In this document: piece after piece, positions 43,600 to 62,387 of the stretch
How positions within the stretch are numbered: the stretch's first letter is position 1
Layout: each line of letters begins with the position of its first letter
Assembly: GCA_019695115.1 (NCBI GenBank)
Contig: JAIBAP010000030.1
Location: forward strand, 1-64,000
Origin: Caldilineales bacterium
Lineage (GTDB): Bacteria > Chloroflexota > Anaerolineae > J102
Reading direction: 5' to 3'
DNA: 64,000 bases
Program-made: the position numbers and the translations under genes
The notes under the pieces: generated by a model
Told to the model about the DNA's origin: nothing
The model's database searches: none
Seen by the model: only the letters and a program-made list of their open reading frames with translations

Positions 43600-44070
43600 C
43601 TACGCCGGCACAAGCTCCATCTCCCGCGCGGCCGGCATCTCTGCCTCCGGCGGCGCCCACATCTGCGCGATCATGCGGAAGATGTCGGACTCGGTGAGGA
43701 TGCCGATGACATTGCCGGCCATATCCAGCACCGGCAGCCCGCTGATCTTCTTGTCCAGCATCAGTTTGGCCGCCTCGCGCACCGTGGCGGATTGTTGGAT
43801 GGCAAGCGGGCGCGGGGTCATGATGTCGCGCACGGTCGTCTTGGCCAGCAGGTAGTTGATCTCCCAGATGCTAAGGGAGGTAGCCTGCGAGGGTTCGGCC
43901 CCGCGGATGTCGCCGCGGGTGACGATGCCGATCAGTTCGCCGTGCTCCACCACCGGCAGGCGGCGAATCCCGTAGCTTTTCATCAGGTGGTGCGCCTCGG
44001 CCAGCGAGGTATCGGGCGAGATGGTGATGACGTCGCGGGTCATCAGGTCTTTGACGAGGATGTTTTTCAT
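43600..44070 (-). CDS. Tandem CBS-domain protein (paralogue 1)
   Basis: The 156-residue cytosolic protein is a CBS pair: VKDLMTRDVITISPDTSLAEAHHLM...GIVTRGDIRGAE and VRDIMTPRPLAIQQSATVREAAKLML...ILTESDIFRMI. Between them lies an insertion, ATSLSIWEINYLLAK, shared with the paralogue at 50346. CBS pairs bind adenine nucleotides and act as energy sensors; stand-alone forms are often stress-induced (for example mycobacterial Hrp1). The ATG at 44070 has AAAGGAG 10 nt upstream. The promoter has a palindromic operator. Confidence 0.88.
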   Translation of the reverse strand: MKNILVKDLMTRDVITISPDTSLAEAHHLMKSYGIRRLPVVEHGELIGIVTRGDIRGAEPSQATSLSIWEINYLLAKTTVRDIMTPRPLAIQQSATVREAAKLMLDKKISGLPVLDMAGNVIGILTESDIFRMIAQMWAPPEAEMPAAREMELVPA

Positions 44071-44129: not shown

Positions 44130-44173
44130 ATTCTAGCCGCTCGGCCGGGTCGGGCGCTATGACGCGCGTCATA
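44130..44173 (-). promoter_or_regulatory. Promoter with TATGA-N6-TCATA operator for the CBS gene
   Basis: A perfect 16-bp palindrome, TATGACGCGCGTCATA (44158-44173), is centred about 42 bp upstream of the predicted start that follows a TAGAAT -10 box (minus strand, 44135-44130). The TGA-N6-TCA core matches the CRP/FNR superfamily. The same operator is found before the PocR gene. Confidence 0.6.
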
Positions 44174-54900: not shown

Positions 54901-55998
54901 CAGTCTCTTTATGTGGTCGATACACGACCGAATGCTGAAAGCCGCTACCGAGCGCGTTTCTACTTCGATCCGAACTCGATCCTGATGGCCAGCGGAGACA
55001 ATCACTACATCTTCTATGGCTATAGCGGGACTTCTAAGATCATCCTGCGTCTACAGTTCCGCTACTACAACGCCAAGTACCAGATCAAGGCAGGGCTTCT
55101 GTCCGATGGTTCAACCTGGACGAGCAGCAGTTGGCTCGCCATCAATGACGCGCCGCACGCAATCGAGTTCGACTGGCGAGCGGCCACAAGTGCAGGCGCC
55201 AACAACGGCGGGCTAACTCTCTGGATCGATGGCGTGCAAAAGGCCAATCTCACCGGCATCGACAACGACACGCTCCGATTCGACCAGCTTCGCCTCGGTG
55301 CGGTTGTTGGCGTCGATACCGGGACGCGTGGCACCTATTACTTCGATGCTTTCGATTCCCGTCGCCAAAGCTATATTGGCCCGATCCCCAGTGATGGAGG
55401 TTCCACGTACGAAAACGGGCCTATAGGTGTGCCGGCCAGAGTCGCAGCGCCGCCGGAAGAAAGCGCGCCCGACGTCGGAGTTGAGGCAGATGAGGAAGCG
55501 GTGCTGGTCGCTCCGCCTTCCGGTTTCGCCCTGGCTATCCCGCCTGCTCTTGAATCGCGGGCAGGTGCAGTCGTCGATGTTCCGATCTCCCTCTCGTTTG
55601 GCAGCGGCGAGGTAGCCGGCCTGGGCTTCTCACTGACCTACGATCCGTCCTGGCTCAGCTTCGACCCGACCGACGCCGACAGCGATGGCTTGCCCGACGC
55701 CATCAGCTTCAAACTGCCCGGCGCCTTCGACGCCACCGTGACATGGGACGGGAGCAGCCCCAATGGTGAGCTGCTCATCAGTCTGGAGAACATCACTTCG
55801 GACAAGCTCATGGGTGTAGAGGGCGCTCTGCTCACGGTTAGCTTTGCTACTGCTGCGCCTGAGGCGATGGTCGAGACGGTCGTTGACATTGGCGCTAGCG
55901 GCGCTTGGGTCGCCGATGCTGAAGGAATCGCGTACCCCATGCCAGCGACTCGTGGCTCGGTGCGTATTTCCCCCTTGCTTCGCCCCGACGTCCCCTAA
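51991..55998 (+). CDS. Exported BNR/Vps10-type repeat protein with C-terminal cohesin-like domain
   Basis: The 1335-residue protein has a signal segment (LALLSLFVLFAGALWLSGSF), a helical region (50-150), then a long beta-propeller region (about 155-810). Asp-box repeats of the form STNGGSTW, STDGGLTW and TTDGGATWSD occur throughout, as in sortilin/Vps10 and BNR sialidase folds. A beta-sandwich region follows (about 930-1130, with GGLTLWIDGVQKANLTG). The last 160 residues resemble a cohesin domain (GAVVDVPISLSFGSGEVAGLGFSLTYDPSWLSFD). No sialidase active-site set is evident. GGAG lies 8 nt before the ATG at 51991. Function is unknown; an adhesive or glycan-related role is likely. Confidence 0.87.
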   Translation: MKNQLSTSGQRSGLALLSLFVLFAGALWLSGSFSALLSPPSGVSTSYACDGALATEAEIAASHGLSVETIQLLHTQRGLSNEAICAMPADKLARAVEKASHPKPDHPDEAVAFRLLQLRDENGVIPEDGLTKAVEHMEAMRGVSAQQAGSAGIEPGDWTWLGPGNIGGRVRSIVIHPTNPSLMWAGSVSGGIWKTTDAGASWLPVDDFMANLAVATLVMQPGNPSIMYAGTGEGFYNGDGIRGAGVFKSTNGGSTWARLASTATSDWFYVNRLAISANGAVILAANDTGIWRSTNGGTSWALRLADWRVKDIDFHPTSNTKAIASGSEGMAWYSTDGGLTWNMASGLPSLDWLGRVEVAYAPSSPSTVYASVSQNSGEIWRSTDGGQSYSLRSTGYNYLGGQGWYDNIVWVDPSNASKLVVGGIDLWRSTDGGATLTQISQWWSAPASAHADHHAIVAKPGFNGTTNATVYFGNDGGVYRANNVYTVSGTTGWQELNNNLGITQFYGAAGNPTSGVIVGGTQDNGTLRYTGNTESWTTMFGGDGGFDAADPTDPNYFYGEYVYLSLHRSTNGGATSDWIYSGLGDAFSCANFIAPFILDPNNANTMLAGGCSLWRSTNIKAAVPSWSSIKPSLGSAISAIAVAQGNSSIIWVGYNDGSVYKTTNGTAASPTWVRVDTGSPGLPYRYVTRLTIDRTNHNLVYATFGGFSADNVWRTTDGGATWSDITGSGATGLPDAPVRSLVIHPTNANWLYVGTEVGVFASENGGAAWSLPQDGPANVSVDELFWMNNTLVAATHGRGLFKVGVGGPPARVTVVGAFTADGNWNQKSVFAPGDPIQWVLEVQNDTGQDAPVELTYDARGPHNEAVAYWHGTVTTGPGVWWWGLPGTAPSGLDGTHTFAGAGLYQGFPSQASTTYVVGSNDVIFADSFEASDCQSSPWSACVTDGGNLSFGSPALKSPGNRSLRALINDNQSLYVVDTRPNAESRYRARFYFDPNSILMASGDNHYIFYGYSGTSKIILRLQFRYYNAKYQIKAGLLSDGSTWTSSSWLAINDAPHAIEFDWRAATSAGANNGGLTLWIDGVQKANLTGIDNDTLRFDQLRLGAVVGVDTGTRGTYYFDAFDSRRQSYIGPIPSDGGSTYENGPIGVPARVAAPPEESAPDVGVEADEEAVLVAPPSGFALAIPPALESRAGAVVDVPISLSFGSGEVAGLGFSLTYDPSWLSFDPTDADSDGLPDAISFKLPGAFDATVTWDGSSPNGELLISLENITSDKLMGVEGALLTVSFATAAPEAMVETVVDIGASGAWVADAEGIAYPMPATRGSVRISPLLRPDVP

Positions 55999-56048
55999 CC
56001 CACGAATAGCGAGGGCGGGCCACAAGTCCCTGCCATCGCAGAGATAGA

Positions 56049-56092
56049 AGAAGCTCCTGCAATCAGGCTTCGACCTGGTCGCAGGAGCTTCT
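56049..56092. terminator. Intrinsic terminator between the BNR/cohesin gene and the DsrE gene
   Basis: AGAAGCTCCTGC (56049-56060) pairs with GCAGGAGCTTCT (56081-56092), with a smaller CAGG/CCTG pairing inside the loop. A T-rich stretch (CTTTCGTTT) follows on the plus strand. It separates convergent genes. Confidence 0.8.
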
Positions 56093-56126
56093 CTTTCGTT
56101 TGCGTCTGACGCTTCGGTTGGGCGCT

Positions 56127-56639
56127 TCAGATAAACACGATCTGCGCCCCCTCGGTCATGTCCATGAAATCCCCGGCGGTGACGATGTCGAGCACGCCCT
56201 CGATGAAATCCTCCTGCTTCAACTCGAACATATCCACCGACATCTTGCAGGCATAGAGCCTGGCCCCGGCGTCCACCAGCATCTGCAGATACTCGCGCAC
56301 GGTGGGGACTTCCAACGCCGCCATCTTGTCCTTCATCAGCTTGGTGGCGAAGGCCGTCATGCCGGGCAGCACGCCCATAATGTTGGGGATGCCCAGGTTC
56401 TCGTTCTTGACGCCCATCATGCTCATCTTCATGCTGGTGTTGGCCACGGGCGCGATTTCCAGGTGATCGACCCGGGCCTCGCGGATCATGTCCATGCCCC
56501 AGAAGGTGAAGAAGATGGTGACATCGATGCCGTTGCCCAGGGCGGCCCAGCCCATCACCAGGGCCGGGTAGACCATATCCAGGGTGCCCTTCGAGCAGAT
56601 AAAAGCGACATGGCGGGTGTCGCCATTTGGTGTAGACAT
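56127..56639 (-). CDS. DsrE2-like sulfurtransferase-family protein
   Basis: The 170-residue protein matches the DsrE/DsrE2 family: HVAFICSKGTLDMVYPALVMGWAALGNGIDVTIFFTFWGMDMI, and GARLYACKMSVDMFELKQEDFIEGV near the C-terminus. Cys15 and the Cys of YACKMS are the conserved positions carrying persulfide in related proteins. GGAGAA lies 7 nt before the ATG at 56639. It is the last gene of the sulfur cluster and would pass sulfane sulfur with TusE. Confidence 0.88.
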   Translation of the reverse strand: MSTPNGDTRHVAFICSKGTLDMVYPALVMGWAALGNGIDVTIFFTFWGMDMIREARVDHLEIAPVANTSMKMSMMGVKNENLGIPNIMGVLPGMTAFATKLMKDKMAALEVPTVREYLQMLVDAGARLYACKMSVDMFELKQEDFIEGVLDIVTAGDFMDMTEGAQIVFI

Positions 56640-56713
56640 TTGATTTTCTCCGTAAGGAATGTTTGTATGTTTGGATTGCCTGTAAGCGTTCACCTTAGAG
56701 GTGTGAAGTAGAG

Positions 56714-56762
56714 GTGCGACGCACTTCACCATTCACATGAAGTCGCTCAAAGTGCGGCGCAC
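56714..56762. repeat. Inverted pair of GTGCG-N-CGCAC palindromes
   Basis: GTGCGACGCAC (56714-56724) and GTGCGGCGCAC (56752-56762) are each palindromic. With their flanks (AGGTGCG..., ...CGCACCT) they form a larger inverted repeat in the DsrE-TusE spacer. Confidence 0.6.
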
Positions 56763-56814
56763 CTGACACGCATCACGTTTCACGCTTCACGGAACACGGA
56801 ACACGGAACACGCA

Positions 56815-56850
56815 TCACACGCATCACACGCATCACACGCATCACACGCA
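56815..56850 (-). repeat. Four in-frame copies of a 9-bp unit covering the tusE C-terminal codons
   Basis: On the minus strand TGC-GTG-TGA, encoding the last two residues (Cys-Val) and the stop of TusE, is repeated four times in frame. GGAACAC heptamers (about 56790-56812) follow further downstream. Confidence 0.85.
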
Positions 56851-57159
56851 CCCCTCCGGCTTGCCCAGCCCGGAGATGCGGGCGACCTTCTTGGCCGGGC
56901 CTTTGGGGAAGAGGGCGAACAACTGCTTGGTGTCCACGCCCGCCGCGGTTGTGATCCGGCGCAGGGTGGGCGATTTACCGGTGGCGCCGGCGTCTTTCCG
57001 GCAGAAATCGATCACCTTCCAGTGGTCGGGCGTCAGGGCCGGGATGCCTTCCTCCGCGGCCAGCGCCGACGCGATCTCGGGCGTCCATTCGGCGGAGTTG
57101 GTCAGAAAACCTTCGTCATTGACCTGCACGGTCTTTCCGGCAATATCACGGGTTGCCAT
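56842..57159 (-). CDS. tusE: TusE/DsrC family sulfur-relay protein
   Basis: The 105-residue protein has the TusE/DsrC fold: [54 protein letters not shown], and the C-terminal GLGKPEGCV with the persulfide-carrying penultimate Cys. The second conserved Cys of true DsrC, ten residues before, is absent, so it is TusE-like. It would accept sulfane sulfur from the DsrE-like protein. The start ATG has AAGGAT about 8 nt upstream. It could serve tRNA thiolation or sulfide oxidation; the SQR neighbour favours the latter. Confidence 0.88.
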
Positions 57160-57186
57160 AGTTTTATCATCCTTTTTTGATGAGGG

Positions 57187-57346
57187 GGATTGGTTATTGG
57201 GGATTGGTTATTGGAGATTGGTTATTGGAGATTGGTTATTGGGGATTGGTTATTGGGGATTGGTTATTGGAGATTGGTTGGATGCGAACGATCAAATAAC
57301 CACTAACCAATAACCACTAACCAATAACCACTAACCAATAACCGCC
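57187..57346. repeat. GGTTATTGG/GGAGATTGG heptamer arrays in opposing orientation
   Basis: About twelve heptamers (GGTTATT, GGGGATT, GGAGATT) run to 57278 and are followed, after GATGCGAACGATC, by reversed units (CCAATAA, CCACTAA). The two halves can form a long imperfect hairpin. It fills the tusE-DUF1641 spacer. Confidence 0.85.
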
Positions 57347-57352
57347 AACCGA

Positions 57353-58048
57353 TCAATTTCTACCTGTTGTACTCGGCGCATTCTCCGCCCCTACGGCCTT
57401 CAACATGCCCAGGGTCACGGCCAGGCCGCGGCGCACTTGCGGGTCGCGGAACTGCTTGAGCAGGCCCCACACCGAGGTGTTGACCTCCTGCGGCTGGGCC
57501 TCGGCCTGGCGCACGCCGTGGGCCAGGTTCTGCACCGTCGCCATCACCTCCGGTTGGGTCATCTCCTTGACGGTGGTGAGGATGGTGACGACGTTCTCGC
57601 CCAGTTGGCGGATGTCCTGCGGGCCGAATGCGGCGACGATATTGTCCGAGATTGTGCGCGCCTCTTTCAGGGCCACGAAATAGCCGCGGCGGTCGAGGTC
57701 ATCGAGCGTCGTCACGGCGCTGGCCACGGCCTCGTTGGCGATGGGCGTCAGGTCGCTCAGTAGGTCGCGGGCGCTTTCCAACTGGTCCAGCAGATATTCC
57801 AGGTTGCGCGTGTTGCGCGCCAGCCGCTTGAGCAGATACAGCAAGTCCTCGAGCTGAAAATCGCTCTCGATTTCTGCCAACTGCTCGACCGAGGCCAGAT
57901 AGACATCATTGACGATCGGCGTCAGATCGGCCTTCAGCTCGTCCCATTCGCGCTGCCGCCGTCGCTGCTCCTCGACATACTCCGCCAAAACCTGCATCTG
58001 CGCCGTCAGCGCATCCAGCTTACCTTCAAGCGTAACTTCTTGTTTCAT
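57353..58048 (-). CDS. DUF1641 family protein
   Basis: The 231-residue protein has a coiled-coil N-terminus (LEGKLDALTAQMQVLAEYVEEQRRRQREW) and the DUF1641 core near the C-terminus (VKEMTQPEVMATVQNLAHGVR, then GLLKQFRDPQVRRGLAVTLGMLKAVG). DUF1641 genes are often next to sulfide:quinone oxidoreductase genes and to formate dehydrogenase genes; its function is unknown. GGAGG lies 8 nt before the ATG at 58048. Confidence 0.88.
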   Translation of the reverse strand: MKQEVTLEGKLDALTAQMQVLAEYVEEQRRRQREWDELKADLTPIVNDVYLASVEQLAEIESDFQLEDLLYLLKRLARNTRNLEYLLDQLESARDLLSDLTPIANEAVASAVTTLDDLDRRGYFVALKEARTISDNIVAAFGPQDIRQLGENVVTILTTVKEMTQPEVMATVQNLAHGVRQAEAQPQEVNTSVWGLLKQFRDPQVRRGLAVTLGMLKAVGAENAPSTTGRN

Positions 58049-58067
58049 CTTCAAACCTCCGCTTCTG

Positions 58068-58127
58068 ATTACCGATCACTGCTCACTGACCACTGACCAC
58101 TGCCCACTGACCACTGACCACTGACCA
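58068..58127. repeat. CTGACCA/CTGCCCA heptamer array
   Basis: About seven heptamers fill the spacer between the SQR-like and DUF1641 genes and end exactly at the SQR stop codon. Confidence 0.85.
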
Positions 58128-59354
58128 CTAATTCCACTTTCCCGCCATCTGCATCTGGGCCGTGATCGGCATCGGCTTGCCTTTCAACAAAATGTTCCAA
58201 TACATCCAGCGGAACAGCACCTTGCCCCAATGGTTGATACGCGACTCTTGTAGCAGCGAGAACGGCCCGGCGCCAGGGAGCGGGAACTTGCCGGGCAGCG
58301 GCTCGACATCGTAGTTGAAGTCGATCAGAAAACCCTTGCCGAAGCCAGATTCGATATAGCAGTTGGCGTGGCCATCGAAAGTGGGGCGCAGGTCCAGGCC
58401 ATCGATGTAGCGCAGGAAATTCTCGATGAAGACATCGCCCTGGAAGTGGGCTACCGAACCGGCCTTCGAGCTGGGCAGGTCGGTGGCATCGCCCAAAACG
58501 AAGACATTGTCGTAGTTCTGCGCCTTGAGCGTGTGCCTTTCGGTGGGGACGAAGTTCAACTCGTTGCCCATGCCCGAACGGGCGATGACCGGGTCGCCCA
58601 TATTCACCGGGATACTCACCAGCAGATCGTACTCGACCTCAGTGCCATCATAGGACGTGATCTTCTTGCCGTCGGGGTCCACCTCCATGATGTTGAACTC
58701 TGGCACGACCCTGATATTCTTCTCTTCCAACAGCCCACCCAGCCGTTCCGAAGCGCGTGGCTTGGTGAAAGCGCCCGGCAGCGGCGTCACCAGCGTCAGA
58801 TCCACGCGGTCGCGCAGACCTTGCTCATGGAAAAACCAGTCGGCCAGGAACATGAATTCCAGGGGCGCCACCGGGCATTTGATCGGCATCTCGGCTATGC
58901 TGAGCACCAGGCGACCGCCGTCCCATTTGCGCAGCGCTTTTTGCAGCGCCACGGCGCCATCGACGGTGTAGAAGTCGAAGATGCTCTGGCGCCAGCCGTG
59001 CTCCATCAGCCCCGGCGTCTCCTCGGGCACGACGCGCGAACCGGTGGTGATGATCAGGTAGTCATAGCTCAGCGTCCGCCCGTTCTGCAGTTGCACCCGG
59101 TTCTTGTCCGGCTCGATGACCTCGATCTCGGCGATGATCGTCTCCACCTGGCGTGGCAGATAGTCGCGGCGCGGGCGCTGCACATCCTCCCGGCTGTAGA
59201 TGCCGAAGGGGATGAACAGAAAGCCGGGCTGGTAGAAGTGGGTTTCGGACTTGTCGACGATCGTGATCTTCCAGCCGTTGTTCAATTCGTGCGCCAGTTT
59301 GTTGGCGACAATGGTGCCGGCGGTCCCGGCGCCGAGGATGACGATGTGTTTCAT
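58128..59354 (-). CDS. Sulfide:quinone oxidoreductase-like flavoprotein
   Basis: The 408-residue protein has an N-terminal FAD-binding motif (HIVILGAGTAGTIVANKLA), DYLIITTGSRVVPEETPG, and a second dinucleotide region. Cys160 (IKCPVAPLEF) and Cys332 (HANCYIESGFG) correspond to the redox Cys pair of SQR; the third Cys of bacterial type I enzymes is absent. The C-terminal FRWMYWNILLKGKPMP amphipathic helix would bind the membrane and quinone. It oxidises sulfide and passes electrons to quinone if the assignment is right. The cluster with TusE, DsrE and DUF1641 supports this. Confidence 0.88.
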   Translation of the reverse strand: MKHIVILGAGTAGTIVANKLAHELNNGWKITIVDKSETHFYQPGFLFIPFGIYSREDVQRPRRDYLPRQVETIIAEIEVIEPDKNRVQLQNGRTLSYDYLIITTGSRVVPEETPGLMEHGWRQSIFDFYTVDGAVALQKALRKWDGGRLVLSIAEMPIKCPVAPLEFMFLADWFFHEQGLRDRVDLTLVTPLPGAFTKPRASERLGGLLEEKNIRVVPEFNIMEVDPDGKKITSYDGTEVEYDLLVSIPVNMGDPVIARSGMGNELNFVPTERHTLKAQNYDNVFVLGDATDLPSSKAGSVAHFQGDVFIENFLRYIDGLDLRPTFDGHANCYIESGFGKGFLIDFNYDVEPLPGKFPLPGAGPFSLLQESRINHWGKVLFRWMYWNILLKGKPMPITAQMQMAGKWN

Positions 59355-59355
59355 G

Positions 59356-59419
59356 GGGAGTAGGGAGTGGGGAGTAGGGAGTAGGGAGTAAGGAGTAGGG
59401 AGTAGGGAGTAGGGAGTAG
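59356..59419. repeat. GGGAGTA heptamer array upstream of the SQR-like gene
   Basis: About nine GGGAGTA-type heptamers lie immediately upstream of the SQR start codon on the minus strand side. The SQR gene therefore has no obvious promoter of its own, and none is seen in the remainder (59420-59466). Confidence 0.9.
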
Positions 59420-59466
59420 GGCGCTCTCCGTGTACTTCATCACTTCATTACTTCATCACTTCGTCG

Positions 59467-60240
59467 CTACCGCGTCTGCGAGATTTCGGCGATGCGGTGG
59501 AGTTTGCTCAGAAGCTGGCTGCGCTCGTTGGCGATGTGAGCAAAGATGTCGGCGAGGCGTTGGACATACTGCAAGGCCCGCGCCTGCTCCTCGCGGCTCA
59601 GGTGGTGGACGTCGTGCAGATGGCGATGGATGAGATCGGGCGGGAGAGCCAGGTCGGCGGCGATAGCGGCGATGCCGGCGTCGGTGGGCGGCCAGTCATC
59701 GGGCGCAACACCCCCCACCACCAGCATGGCCCGGATTTCGTTGCCCACACGGATCATGCCCCGCGCGCACAGCAAACCCAGGTGGCTGCGTTGGAAGCGC
59801 GGGGCCAGACCGGGTTCCTGCCCCAACCTCACCCACAATTCCAGACAGCGATGCCGCCCCACCTCGGTGCTCTCGGCCGCCTGGAACAGACCGCAGGCAT
59901 TGCTGGGCTGCGTGATCGGCCGGCCCTCCAAATCGGTCAGGACGATCATCACCCCCAACAAAGCGGCAAAGCTATCCTGGAGCTGTTGCAGGCAATCGAC
60001 CGGGAACAGCTGCCGGGCTTCGGCCCAATCCGCCGGTGGCGCCAGCGGCGTTCGCTCCGCCCACACGGGTGCGGCCCCACTGTGGCTCTGCAACCAGCTT
60101 TCGATCTGCTCCCGCTCGAAGCGCCACTGGTTGCCCACCCGCGCCGCCGGCAGACTGCCGGCCTCGACCATGCGGTAGATGGTGGTGCGGTCTACCTTGA
60201 GGAGGTCTTGCAGCTGGCGGGTGGTGAGGAAATCGGGCAT
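59467..60240 (-). CDS. Excisionase-type HTH + PocR sensory-domain regulator
   Basis: The 257-residue protein has an N-terminal HTH_17 (excisionase-like) domain (FLTTRQLQDLLKVDRTTIYRMVEAGSLPAARVGNQWRFEREQIESWL). A PocR domain follows (about 90-255), with VLTDLEGRPITQPSNACGLFQ, RHRCLELWVRLGQ, LGLLCARGMIRVGNEIRAMLVVGG. PocR domains bind small ligands. It is probably the local regulator of the sulfur genes downstream. The ATG at 60240 begins the HTH domain. Its promoter carries a CRP/FNR-type operator. Confidence 0.85.
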   Translation of the reverse strand: MPDFLTTRQLQDLLKVDRTTIYRMVEAGSLPAARVGNQWRFEREQIESWLQSHSGAAPVWAERTPLAPPADWAEARQLFPVDCLQQLQDSFAALLGVMIVLTDLEGRPITQPSNACGLFQAAESTEVGRHRCLELWVRLGQEPGLAPRFQRSHLGLLCARGMIRVGNEIRAMLVVGGVAPDDWPPTDAGIAAIAADLALPPDLIHRHLHDVHHLSREEQARALQYVQRLADIFAHIANERSQLLSKLHRIAEISQTR

Positions 60241-60270
60241 TTTGTGCAGTCTTTCACAAACTGATGCCCA

Positions 60271-60313
60271 AGCATAGCACACCCTCTTGGCGCCGGATAT
60301 GATCTAAGTCATA
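60271..60313 (-). promoter_or_regulatory. Class-II-type promoter with TATGA-N6-TCATA operator for the PocR gene
   Basis: The operator TATGATCTAAGTCATA (60298-60313) is centred 41.5 bp upstream of the start predicted from an extended -10, TGCTATGCT (minus strand, hexamer 60276-60271). -41.5 is the classic class II position for CRP/FNR activators. A matching site precedes the CBS gene at 44070. The 60314-60426 spacer holds nothing else recognisable. Confidence 0.65.
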
Positions 60314-60426
60314 GTTGGCGCATCATTTCCCACTTGATGTAACCCCGTGCACACAATGCAGCAAATGTCGGTGACCCGCGCCGGCAGGGGTGGCTCGCGG
60401 ACAGGGCCGGAGTGATGTCGCTGCGC

Positions 60427-60636
60427 TCAGCCGGGTGCGGCCAGGGCGATGGCCGCGAATGGGCAGGCGTCCAGGCAGACAAAGCAACGCTGGCAACGCG
60501 CCGTATCGACGATGGGCGCCTCGTCGCGGTCGATCCGCAGGATGGCAAGGGAGCGGCAGGCGCGCAGGGCCGGGCAGGGGGCGCAGTTCTGGCAGCGGGC
60601 TTCGTCGATAGCGGGGTAGCACCGCAGGCTGAGCAT
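60427..60636 (-). CDS. Small 4Fe-4S ferredoxin-like protein
   Basis: The 69-residue protein has two cysteine clusters: RCQNCAPCPALRACRS and RCQRCFVCLDACPF. The second is a typical CxxCxxCxxxCP 4Fe-4S signature; the first is a variant with wider spacing to its fourth Cys. It ends 187 bp before the PocR start and follows the dynamin-like gene by 2 bp on the same strand. The electron partner is unknown. Confidence 0.75.
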   Translation of the reverse strand: MLSLRCYPAIDEARCQNCAPCPALRACRSLAILRIDRDEAPIVDTARCQRCFVCLDACPFAAIALAAPG

Positions 60637-60638
60637 GG

Positions 60639-62387
60639 CTAGCGGCCGTTTTGCAGGGCGTGCAATTGGCTGCGGAGTTGGCGCAGGGTCAGGGCCACGC
60701 CACCCAGCTCGGCATCGAGCGCGGTCACTTTCTCGTGCTCGCTGCGGATGAAGCGCGTGTAGGGGGCGATGGCCTCGCGGATCTCTTGCAACGAGCGGGC
60801 CAACTCGCGCTCGAACTGCTGCGTCATCGTCTCCAGGAGCCGCGTGCGCACCGCCTCGATCTTGGCGTCCAGGTCGTCTTTGGCGCGGCGACGGCGCGCG
60901 GGCAAAATGAACAGCCCGGCAATGGCCAGGCCGCCGGCGGCCAGGATGCCGAGCGGGTCGAGGGCGCGGGTGAGCAGGTGGAGGAGGAGGGCGCCGAGGC
61001 CGACGGCGCCGATCTCGACCGCGCCCATGGTCGTCAATGAGTTGCGCACCGACTCGCTAAGCGCCCGCGCCTCGGCCTGATGGTCGTAGGTGGCCACGAC
61101 CTCGCGGGCGGCGCGGCCCACCGACTGCAACAGTTGCTGGCGGTTGATGTCGAAGCTGCCGCCGACCTCGCCCAGCACCCGGTCGCCATACTGCGCCGCC
61201 CGGCGGTTCAGATAGCCGGTCACATCCTGCCACTGCCGGTAGTTGCGCTCGATCATCCAGTCGATGAGGTCGTTGACCTCGGTTTCGATGCGCTGATGGG
61301 TGTCGGCGACGACCTGCTGCTCGAACTCGGCCCGCAGCCGGGCGCTGTTGAGCAGGTCGAGGAAGCGGCCCATGCGGATGGTTTCCTCGAAAAAGCGGTC
61401 GCCGCGCAGCCGCAAATCCTGGAGGATGTTCTCGATGCGGCTGAGACGGAAACGAAAATCGTGCCGCATGTCGGCGGCATAGGCGTCCAACTGGCCGTCG
61501 ACGTGCTGCAAGGTGGCGAAGTCCTCGTCCAGCAACTCCAGGCGCTGCTTCAGCAGGTCGAGATAGGCGGATTGCAGCCGCTCGGCCACGCCCAGGGGGC
61601 TTTCCAGCTTCAGTTGCAGCCGTTGTTGCTGGTCGAGCGTGCGGAGGATGTAGGATTCCAACTCCTCGAAGCGCGAGGCGGCCAGCAGGCGGGGGCGGTC
61701 GGCGTCGTCGGCAGCGCGGGCGCGCTGCGCCAACCGCACCGAGACCGGGAAGATGCGCGGCACCGCGCCCAGCACGCCCGCCGCCTGGTCGCGCACGAAA
61801 TCCACCACCTGGTTGATACTGGCTTCGTCCTCGAGGATGTCGATTTTGTTGATGACGATGACGACCTTCTTGCCCCAGTCGCGCACCAGCTGCATGAACA
61901 CCCGCTCGCTTTCGCTGAAGGGGCGGTCGGTGGAGGTGACGAACAGGATCAGGTCGGCGCGGGGGACGAAGGCTTCGGTGATCTCCTGGTGGCGCTGGAT
62001 GATGGCGTTGGTGCCAGGGGTATCGACGATGTTGATCTCGCGCAGCCACTCCACCGGATAGCTGACCCGCAGCAGAAACGGCTCGATCTGCTCGGCGGTG
62101 GAGCGGGGGCCGTAGGTGAGGACGTGGATCTGGCTGGTGGTGGGGGTGACGCCTTCATCCAGGAATTTCTGCCCCAACATGGCGTTGATGAAGGCCGATT
62201 TGCCGCTATTGAATTCGCCCACGACGACGAGCAGGAAGAACTCGTCCAGTTGTAGCCGGGTGCGGGCCAGCAACTCGCGCTCGCTCGCCGGCGATTCGAT
62301 GCGCACGGCGATGCTTTCCAGCCGCGTGAACACCTCGCGCTCACGCTCCAGGATCTGGTGCTGTGGCGGCGTGAGGATGTTCTGCAT
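60639..62387 (-). CDS. Bacterial dynamin-like GTPase
   Basis: The 582-residue protein has a dynamin-type GTPase domain with G1 GEFNSGKSAFINAML, a G2 Thr in the GVTPTTS loop, G3 DTPGTN, and G4 NKID. Long helical regions follow, and a hydrophobic segment (about 470-510, IGAVGLGALLLHLLTRALDPLGILAAGGLAIAGLFILP) for membrane insertion, then a coiled C-terminus. Such proteins remodel or protect membranes. It is co-directional with the unknown 473-aa protein (14 bp upstream) and ctaB. Confidence 0.9.
   Translation of the reverse strand: MQNILTPPQHQILEREREVFTRLESIAVRIESPASERELLARTRLQLDEFFLLVVVGEFNSGKSAFINAMLGQKFLDEGVTPTTSQIHVLTYGPRSTAEQIEPFLLRVSYPVEWLREINIVDTPGTNAIIQRHQEITEAFVPRADLILFVTSTDRPFSESERVFMQLVRDWGKKVVIVINKIDILEDEASINQVVDFVRDQAAGVLGAVPRIFPVSVRLAQRARAADDADRPRLLAASRFEELESYILRTLDQQQRLQLKLESPLGVAERLQSAYLDLLKQRLELLDEDFATLQHVDGQLDAYAADMRHDFRFRLSRIENILQDLRLRGDRFFEETIRMGRFLDLLNSARLRAEFEQQVVADTHQRIETEVNDLIDWMIERNYRQWQDVTGYLNRRAAQYGDRVLGEVGGSFDINRQQLLQSVGRAAREVVATYDHQAEARALSESVRNSLTTMGAVEIGAVGLGALLLHLLTRALDPLGILAAGGLAIAGLFILPARRRRAKDDLDAKIEAVRTRLLETMTQQFERELARSLQEIREAIAPYTRFIRSEHEKVTALDAELGGVALTLRQLRSQLHALQNGR

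Follow-up and report, generated by a model that had tools for sequence, protein, structure and literature searches.

The stretch of DNA analysed here, called the window, comprises 64,000 nucleotides of a contig from a Caldilineales bacterium (Chloroflexota) and carries, on its minus strand, a promoter situated between an upstream gene for a small cysteine-rich ferredoxin-like protein and a gene for a PocR-like regulator, the latter followed by genes for a sulfide:quinone reductase (sqr), a DUF1641 protein, a TusE/DsrC sulfur relay protein and a DsrE2-like sulfur carrier (Table 1). The interval given for the DsrE2-like protein is that of the longest frame, and its real start may lie later. No minus-strand terminator-like site was found between these genes in the window, and the five genes presumably form one transcript. 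In a set of 80 PocR-like loci, taken from species genomes that have record titles, the PocR-like gene is followed on its own strand by sqr in 55 cases and by the complete series sqr-DUF1641-tusE-dsrE2, in this order, in 49, which agrees with the first-pass annotation in placing the SQR, TusE and DsrE genes under predicted control of this promoter, with the correction that its gene list lacked the DUF1641 gene inside the operon. We also observed imperfect GGGAGTA repeats (59356-59420) between the PocR-like gene and sqr. The reductase scores above the cut-off of the NCBIfam family "type III, selenoprotein subtype" with a frame free of internal stops, and is presumably a Cys form.

Table 1. Features of the promoter region, of the operon behind it and of related elements (positions refer to the window unless a contig is named).
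Feature	Position	Strand	Basis and remarks
Ferredoxin-like protein, small, cysteine-rich; gene upstream of the promoter	60427-60636	minus	translation by eye
CRP/FNR-type operator TATGATCTAAGTCATA	60298-60313 (centre 60305.5)		pattern search; conservation in relatives
Extended -10, TG-C-TATGCT	60279-60271 (hexamer 60276-60271)	minus	
Predicted transcription start	~60264	minus	inferred from the -10, 7 nt past the hexamer
Regulator, HTH_17 and PocR sensory domain	59467-60240	minus	PF12728 60.9 bits; PF10114 89.4 bits; TIGR01764
Sulfide:quinone reductase, type III	58128-59354	minus	NF049943 650.7 bits (cut-off 525)
DUF1641 protein	57353-58054	minus	PF07849 35.7 bits
TusE/DsrC sulfur relay protein	56842-57159	minus	PF04358; TIGR03342
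DsrE2-like sulfur carrier	56127-56732	minus	PF13686 118.8 bits; NF047629 117.3 bits, below cut-off 210
Second operator TATGACGCGCGTCATA	44158-44173		same type as 60298-60313
-10 of second operator, TAGAAT	44130-44135	minus	spacing to the operator 22 bp, giving -42.5
CBS-domain protein gene behind second operator	43600-44070	minus	PF00571 131.7 bits (L033:5443-5913)
Small RNA, own copy	G000:C59:7650-7749 (L010:1550-1649)	plus	alignment A1; model R1

The regulator shares with PocR its sensory domain (PF10114, well over the cut-off of 23.9 bits) and differs from it in the DNA-binding domain, which is of the AraC type in PocR and of the HTH_17/excisionase type (TIGR01764, excise) in the window protein. 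It is therefore not PocR proper, as the first-pass annotation had it, but a PocR-like gene that comparison places under the predicted control of the operator. Cys83 and Cys132 of this protein occur in every one of 12 aligned rows, with Cys158 present in 11 and Cys116 in 9, a set that could possibly serve as a thiol or metal sensor.

Read on the minus strand, the palindrome is TATGACTTAGATCATA, followed after 21 bases by the TATGCT hexamer, with a TG one base ahead of the latter. The coordinates confirm the earlier proposal that the centre of the operator lies 41.5 bp from a start predicted from the extended -10. A promoter scan of 55900-60700 gave no sigma-70-like promoter that includes a -35 box. 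In E. coli, class II CRP/FNR promoters have a palindrome of 16 bp, centred at -41.5, whose TGA cores flank a six-base spacer; they have an extended or plain -10 and no -35. The window promoter has the same palindrome layout, with two-fold symmetry, TGA cores and a six-base spacer, and likewise no -35 and a centre at about -41.5, as judged from the -10 spacing to a predicted start. The difference from E. coli is in the half-site, which is TGTGA for CRP and TTGAT for FNR, and TATGA here. A wider palindrome at the window site, GCGCC-N3-TATGA...TCATA-N3-GGCGC, is absent from homologous promoters and was set aside as local composition, and the idea that the palindrome is the PocR-like protein's own operator is not supported, since the same site also stands ahead of unrelated genes.

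In the window alone, a scan allowing two mismatches gave 10 sites against a shuffle mean of 5.65, with 7 of 100 shuffles reaching 10, which is no clear enrichment; the case for an operator beyond chance draws its strength from the whole genome and its relatives. The own genome (5,986,056 bases) contains 14 exact TATGA-N6-TCATA sites, against none for the reversed control and 0.5-0.7 expected from window composition. Ten of these read TATGAYnnnnRTCATA, and four belong to a separate class with AAATTTTTATGA-like flanks; among the ten, a -10-like hexamer lies exactly 21 bp off in one direction in seven, and 22 bp off in one. The looser pattern TGAYNNNNRTCA-N23-TANNNT, with free outer bases and the -10 fixed at the distance of the window promoter, gave 33 matches in the own genome (control 1, expected 1.5-1.9) and 223 in the 11 family genomes, own included (control 17). 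The genome-wide enrichment at -41.5 that the first-pass annotation had proposed to look for is thus present.

The spacing was also examined on 91 exact sites from the family genomes plus G033, G039 and G049. Of the 181 directions in this set, 44 have TAnnnT at 21 bp, 16 have it at 16 bp and 11 at 23 bp, most other spacings giving 0-6, and a good -10 lies exactly 21 bp away in a single direction at 57 of the 91 sites and in both directions at none. The centre of those 57 class II-spaced sites reads TATGATCTAGATCATA, and this centre equals that of the E. coli CRP consensus, TGTGATCTAGATCACA. As a separate observation, a different palindrome class, AAATTTTTATGA-N6-TCATAAAAATTT, occurs at L002, L003, L004 and L013 (own contigs C3, C11 and C84) close to TTGAC and TATAAT-like boxes, with neighbours that by eye resemble B12-binding radical-SAM proteins, and is probably served by another regulator.

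Conservation at homologous promoters points the same way. Within one mismatch, the operator is present 50-87 bp ahead of the gene at 13 of 24 PocR-like loci (a count that omits L152, where the protein is represented by its C-terminal half alone, and includes L139 and L140, each with fewer than 80 bases upstream), and each of the 13 has, at 21 bp, a hexamer that begins with TA and ends with T. Twelve of the 13 corresponding proteins, the window's own counted, share at least 51% identity with the window protein, and the remaining one, in G049, shares 48%. Nine more distant loci are without the operator, one of them (G048) having TGTGACGATTATCACA in its place, and the remaining two are truncated at contig ends. 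The operator also precedes a second PocR-like paralogue, with one mismatch on own contig C13 and exactly in G001:C8 and G005:C71. Some homologous PocR-like promoters (G014, G048) contain a TGTGA half-site or full TGTGA site. In more distant lineages we observed TGTGA-N6-TCACA at the PocR-like operon, within one mismatch at 19 of 80 loci and often near the start codon (L279, L282, L285, L291, L293-L296, L307, L318, L328 and others), possibly a rewiring to another CRP/FNR protein.

The genes behind operator-promoters of the own genome outline a candidate regulon. They include an ArsR-DGC gene set and genes for HdrC, HdrB and HdrA-like proteins, a CCG/Fer4 protein (668 aa) of the DsrK/TmcB/Hdr type, a NuoE-like protein, PFOR, fumarase C, a Gate/FeoB_C protein, DUF2249, malic enzyme, an S30AE ribosome-hibernation protein, a multihaem cytochrome, a protein with a nos_propeller match, and the second PocR-like regulator, which is followed by an octaheme cytochrome of the tetrathionate-reductase family (TIGR04315, 574.5 bits, cut-off 375). 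The list holds false positives, since at 6 of the 30 loci inspected among the 33 own-genome matches the match lies inside a called gene. The 22-bp spacing of the second operator in the window recurs before the homologous CBS-domain gene in G002 (L174). PFOR, fumarase, the FeoB-like and nos_propeller proteins, DUF2249 and multihaem cytochromes are candidate targets in common with FNR-type anaerobic regulons, whereas sqr-DUF1641-tusE-dsrE2 and HdrCBA are included here, by comparison only, and not there.

Which protein reads this operator? Eight proteins of the own genome match HTH_Crp_2 over the cut-off, one being GntR-like by sequence, which leaves seven CRP/FNR proteins. Only one of them (G000:C79:9687-10427), which we name FnrX, has the helix TTVETAIRVMSRF (VETAIR); the other six have RETATQ, RESVNK, REVVGR, RETISA, PDVLSR and LFTVSR. 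In CRP/FNR helices a Glu and an Arg read the G:C of TGA, and another Arg reads G2 of TGTGA. FnrX retains the Glu and the Arg that would read TGA and has Val where the G2-reading Arg would stand, so its helix fits TATGA. Thus a CRP/FNR homologue with an apparently matching recognition helix, as the first-pass annotation had anticipated, does exist, and FnrX is the likeliest regulator reading TATGA-N6-TCATA.

FnrX belongs to the CRP/FNR superfamily, being over the cut-off for both cNMP_binding (PF00027, 83.4 bits) and HTH_Crp_2 (PF13545, 68.3 bits), and it is neither CRP nor FNR in the strict sense. CRP has an Arg that contacts the cAMP phosphate and an RE...R recognition helix, and FNR has four conserved cysteines for its [4Fe-4S] cluster; the E. 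coli helices are RETVGR or VETISR. FnrX has Tyr107 at the position of the cAMP-phosphate Arg, invariant in 26 aligned rows of relatives, together with VETAIR, and scores 88.4 bits for NF008732 (cut-off 266) and 55.6 bits for NF008365 (cut-off 228). No FNR-type cysteine set was found in these rows, where Cys48 alone is present in at least half (19 of 26), while the helix is nearly invariant and His78 invariant.

Operator numbers follow the distribution of FnrX, with exceptions. The 25 genomes that have FnrX at E<1e-60 show higher numbers of exact sites than the 36 that lack it (p=1.4e-5, or p=0.016 for genomes outside the family), these p-values ignoring shared ancestry. In 41 non-family genomes, TATGAYNNNNRTCA with a -10 gave 58 matches (control 3), of which 33 fall in the 7 genomes that have FnrX at the same cut and 25 in the 34 that lack it (p=2.8e-5); at E<1e-45, a cut picked after the counts were seen, there are 49 in 13 genomes with FnrX and 9 in 28 without (p=5e-6), shared ancestry again being ignored. 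G012 and G013 (85 and 87% complete) have operators and no strong FnrX match, and G029 and G032 have an FnrX relative and no operator-promoters. The operator is found upstream of only 1 of 28 fnrX genes, in G049, 64 bp before the homologue's matched start and without a -10 at 21 bp. A CRP gene beside a site in G033 was considered as a further FnrX case, which its helix, VREVVSR, rules out.

Many family operator sites have no gene after them, and there we found a conserved sequence of about 100 nt with GUCACCUCC, GGUGCACCUCCUUUC, a UGUGUG tract and a terminator whose stem shows compensatory changes in the alignment. By eye, the UG tract changes in length and there is no shared ATG, which speaks against a coding sequence; its motifs are anti-Shine-Dalgarno and its terminator is intrinsic. 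The motif CACCUCCUUUC in this small RNA (sRNA) we take to be the anti-Shine-Dalgarno sequence as at the 16S rRNA tail. A covariance model found the sRNA in 10 of 10 family genomes and in none of the 189 others among 199 genomes of the class, with a second, weak match in G007. The operator lies within one mismatch at all ten strong copies, including that of G011, which was outside the model; the other nine were first found via the operator, which makes the co-occurrence circular for those. The own-genome pattern search missed the own copy, in L010, because its TG repeat is longer, and its hexamer at 21 bp is ATTACT, a weak -10. Across 12 sources, 11 of them holding a copy, no Rfam family matched the sRNA over its cut-off, the best match, for one copy, being anti-hemB at 20.2 bits (cut-off 49.5), and a literature search on FNR-linked or Chloroflexi sRNAs found none like it. 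A possible second, diverged sRNA, with TATCTCCTTGTAGTGTGGGA and then a terminator, was observed in L226 (G017:C232) and L253 (G007:C37:10063-10146), the G017 copy having an exact operator 21 bp before TTGAAT.

The element at 60271-60313 and its class are thus as the first-pass annotation had proposed: the observation holds, and the interpretation as a CRP/FNR-type operator in the class II activator position is largely supported by the comparative evidence of spacing, conservation and enrichment. We consider it probable that this is a class II activator-dependent promoter, most likely bound by FnrX, heading an anaerobic, sulfur and multihaem-cytochrome regulon together with the sRNA. A CRP/FNR-family dimer would bind the palindrome at -41.5 and touch RNA polymerase at the extended -10, where there is no -35 hexamer, and this contact would switch on the PocR-like gene and sqr-DUF1641-tusE-dsrE2 behind it. 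The dimer would most likely be FnrX, reading TATGA-N6-TCATA through its V-E-T-A-I-R helix, and FnrX would head the regulon in this Chloroflexota family and drive the sRNA as well. Genome comparison shows the site with its spacing and conservation, its enrichment and the target genes behind it; FnrX as the bound protein, and activation by it, we infer, and its signal would be low oxygen or the redox state.

It is less probable, in our view rather unlikely, that a real class II operator is bound by one or more of the other CRP/FNR paralogues. The own genome offers seven such proteins, TGTGA half or full sites (G014, G048) could be used by TGTGA-reading paralogues, and most genomes show no visible fnrX autoregulation; however, none of the six other helices has the V-E-x-x-x-R pattern expected for TATGA, and operator-promoter counts track FnrX, the one paralogue compared in this way, outside the family. 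That the bound protein blocks or tunes the promoter, as a repressor or in a dual role, seems improbable: CRP/FNR proteins are able to repress, the fnrX site of G049 is without class II spacing, and more distant lineages have TGTGA sites close to the start codon of the PocR-like gene, but the -10 stands at a constant 21 bp and 55900-60700 yielded no -35-type promoter, both of which are marks of activation at -41.5. The window-only scan would by itself suit a chance match or an effect of base composition, an explanation that the genome-wide excess, the fixed spacing and the conservation at homologous promoters leave with next to no credit.

With FnrX-dependent activation as the favoured reading, the system appears to be a CRP/FNR class II regulon of known type, apparently with its own half-site code and an undescribed sRNA. 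The portions available of PMC8510549, PMC4409812, PMC3840689 and PMC9603854 mention neither a TATGA CRP/FNR motif nor this sRNA. According to PMC3840689, RegPrecise 3.0 offers 30 TF regulogs for the Chloroflexi, and this collection may hold a motif related to TATGA-N6-TCATA. The closest likeness for the sRNA is with RsaE/RoxS of the Firmicutes, C-rich redox sRNAs able to pair with Shine-Dalgarno sequences, as far as the available text of PMC4409812 goes: both have C-rich stretches that could pair with Shine-Dalgarno sequences, and transcription controlled by a respiration-tied regulator, which is ResD/SrrA there and a predicted CRP/FNR-type protein here, and the present sRNA differs in its GGUGCACCUCCUUUC and its terminator stem with compensatory changes.

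In summary, one promoter leads to a testable regulon in a largely uncultured Chloroflexota family, for which there is now a half-site code, one candidate regulator and, in the own genome, some 20 candidate targets, and an sRNA family without an Rfam model emerges from the operator analysis. One switch would join the oxidation of sulfide, electron transfer of the Hdr type and anaerobic carbon metabolism. As a tentative idea, which we hold with some doubt, this may be an undescribed Chloroflexota anaerobic regulon under a CRP/FNR protein that lacks a cluster and has a half-site code of its own, in which the family-specific anti-Shine-Dalgarno sRNA would slow translation broadly while the cell switches to anaerobic sulfur metabolism, beside a ribosome-hibernation factor gene with an operator-like site.
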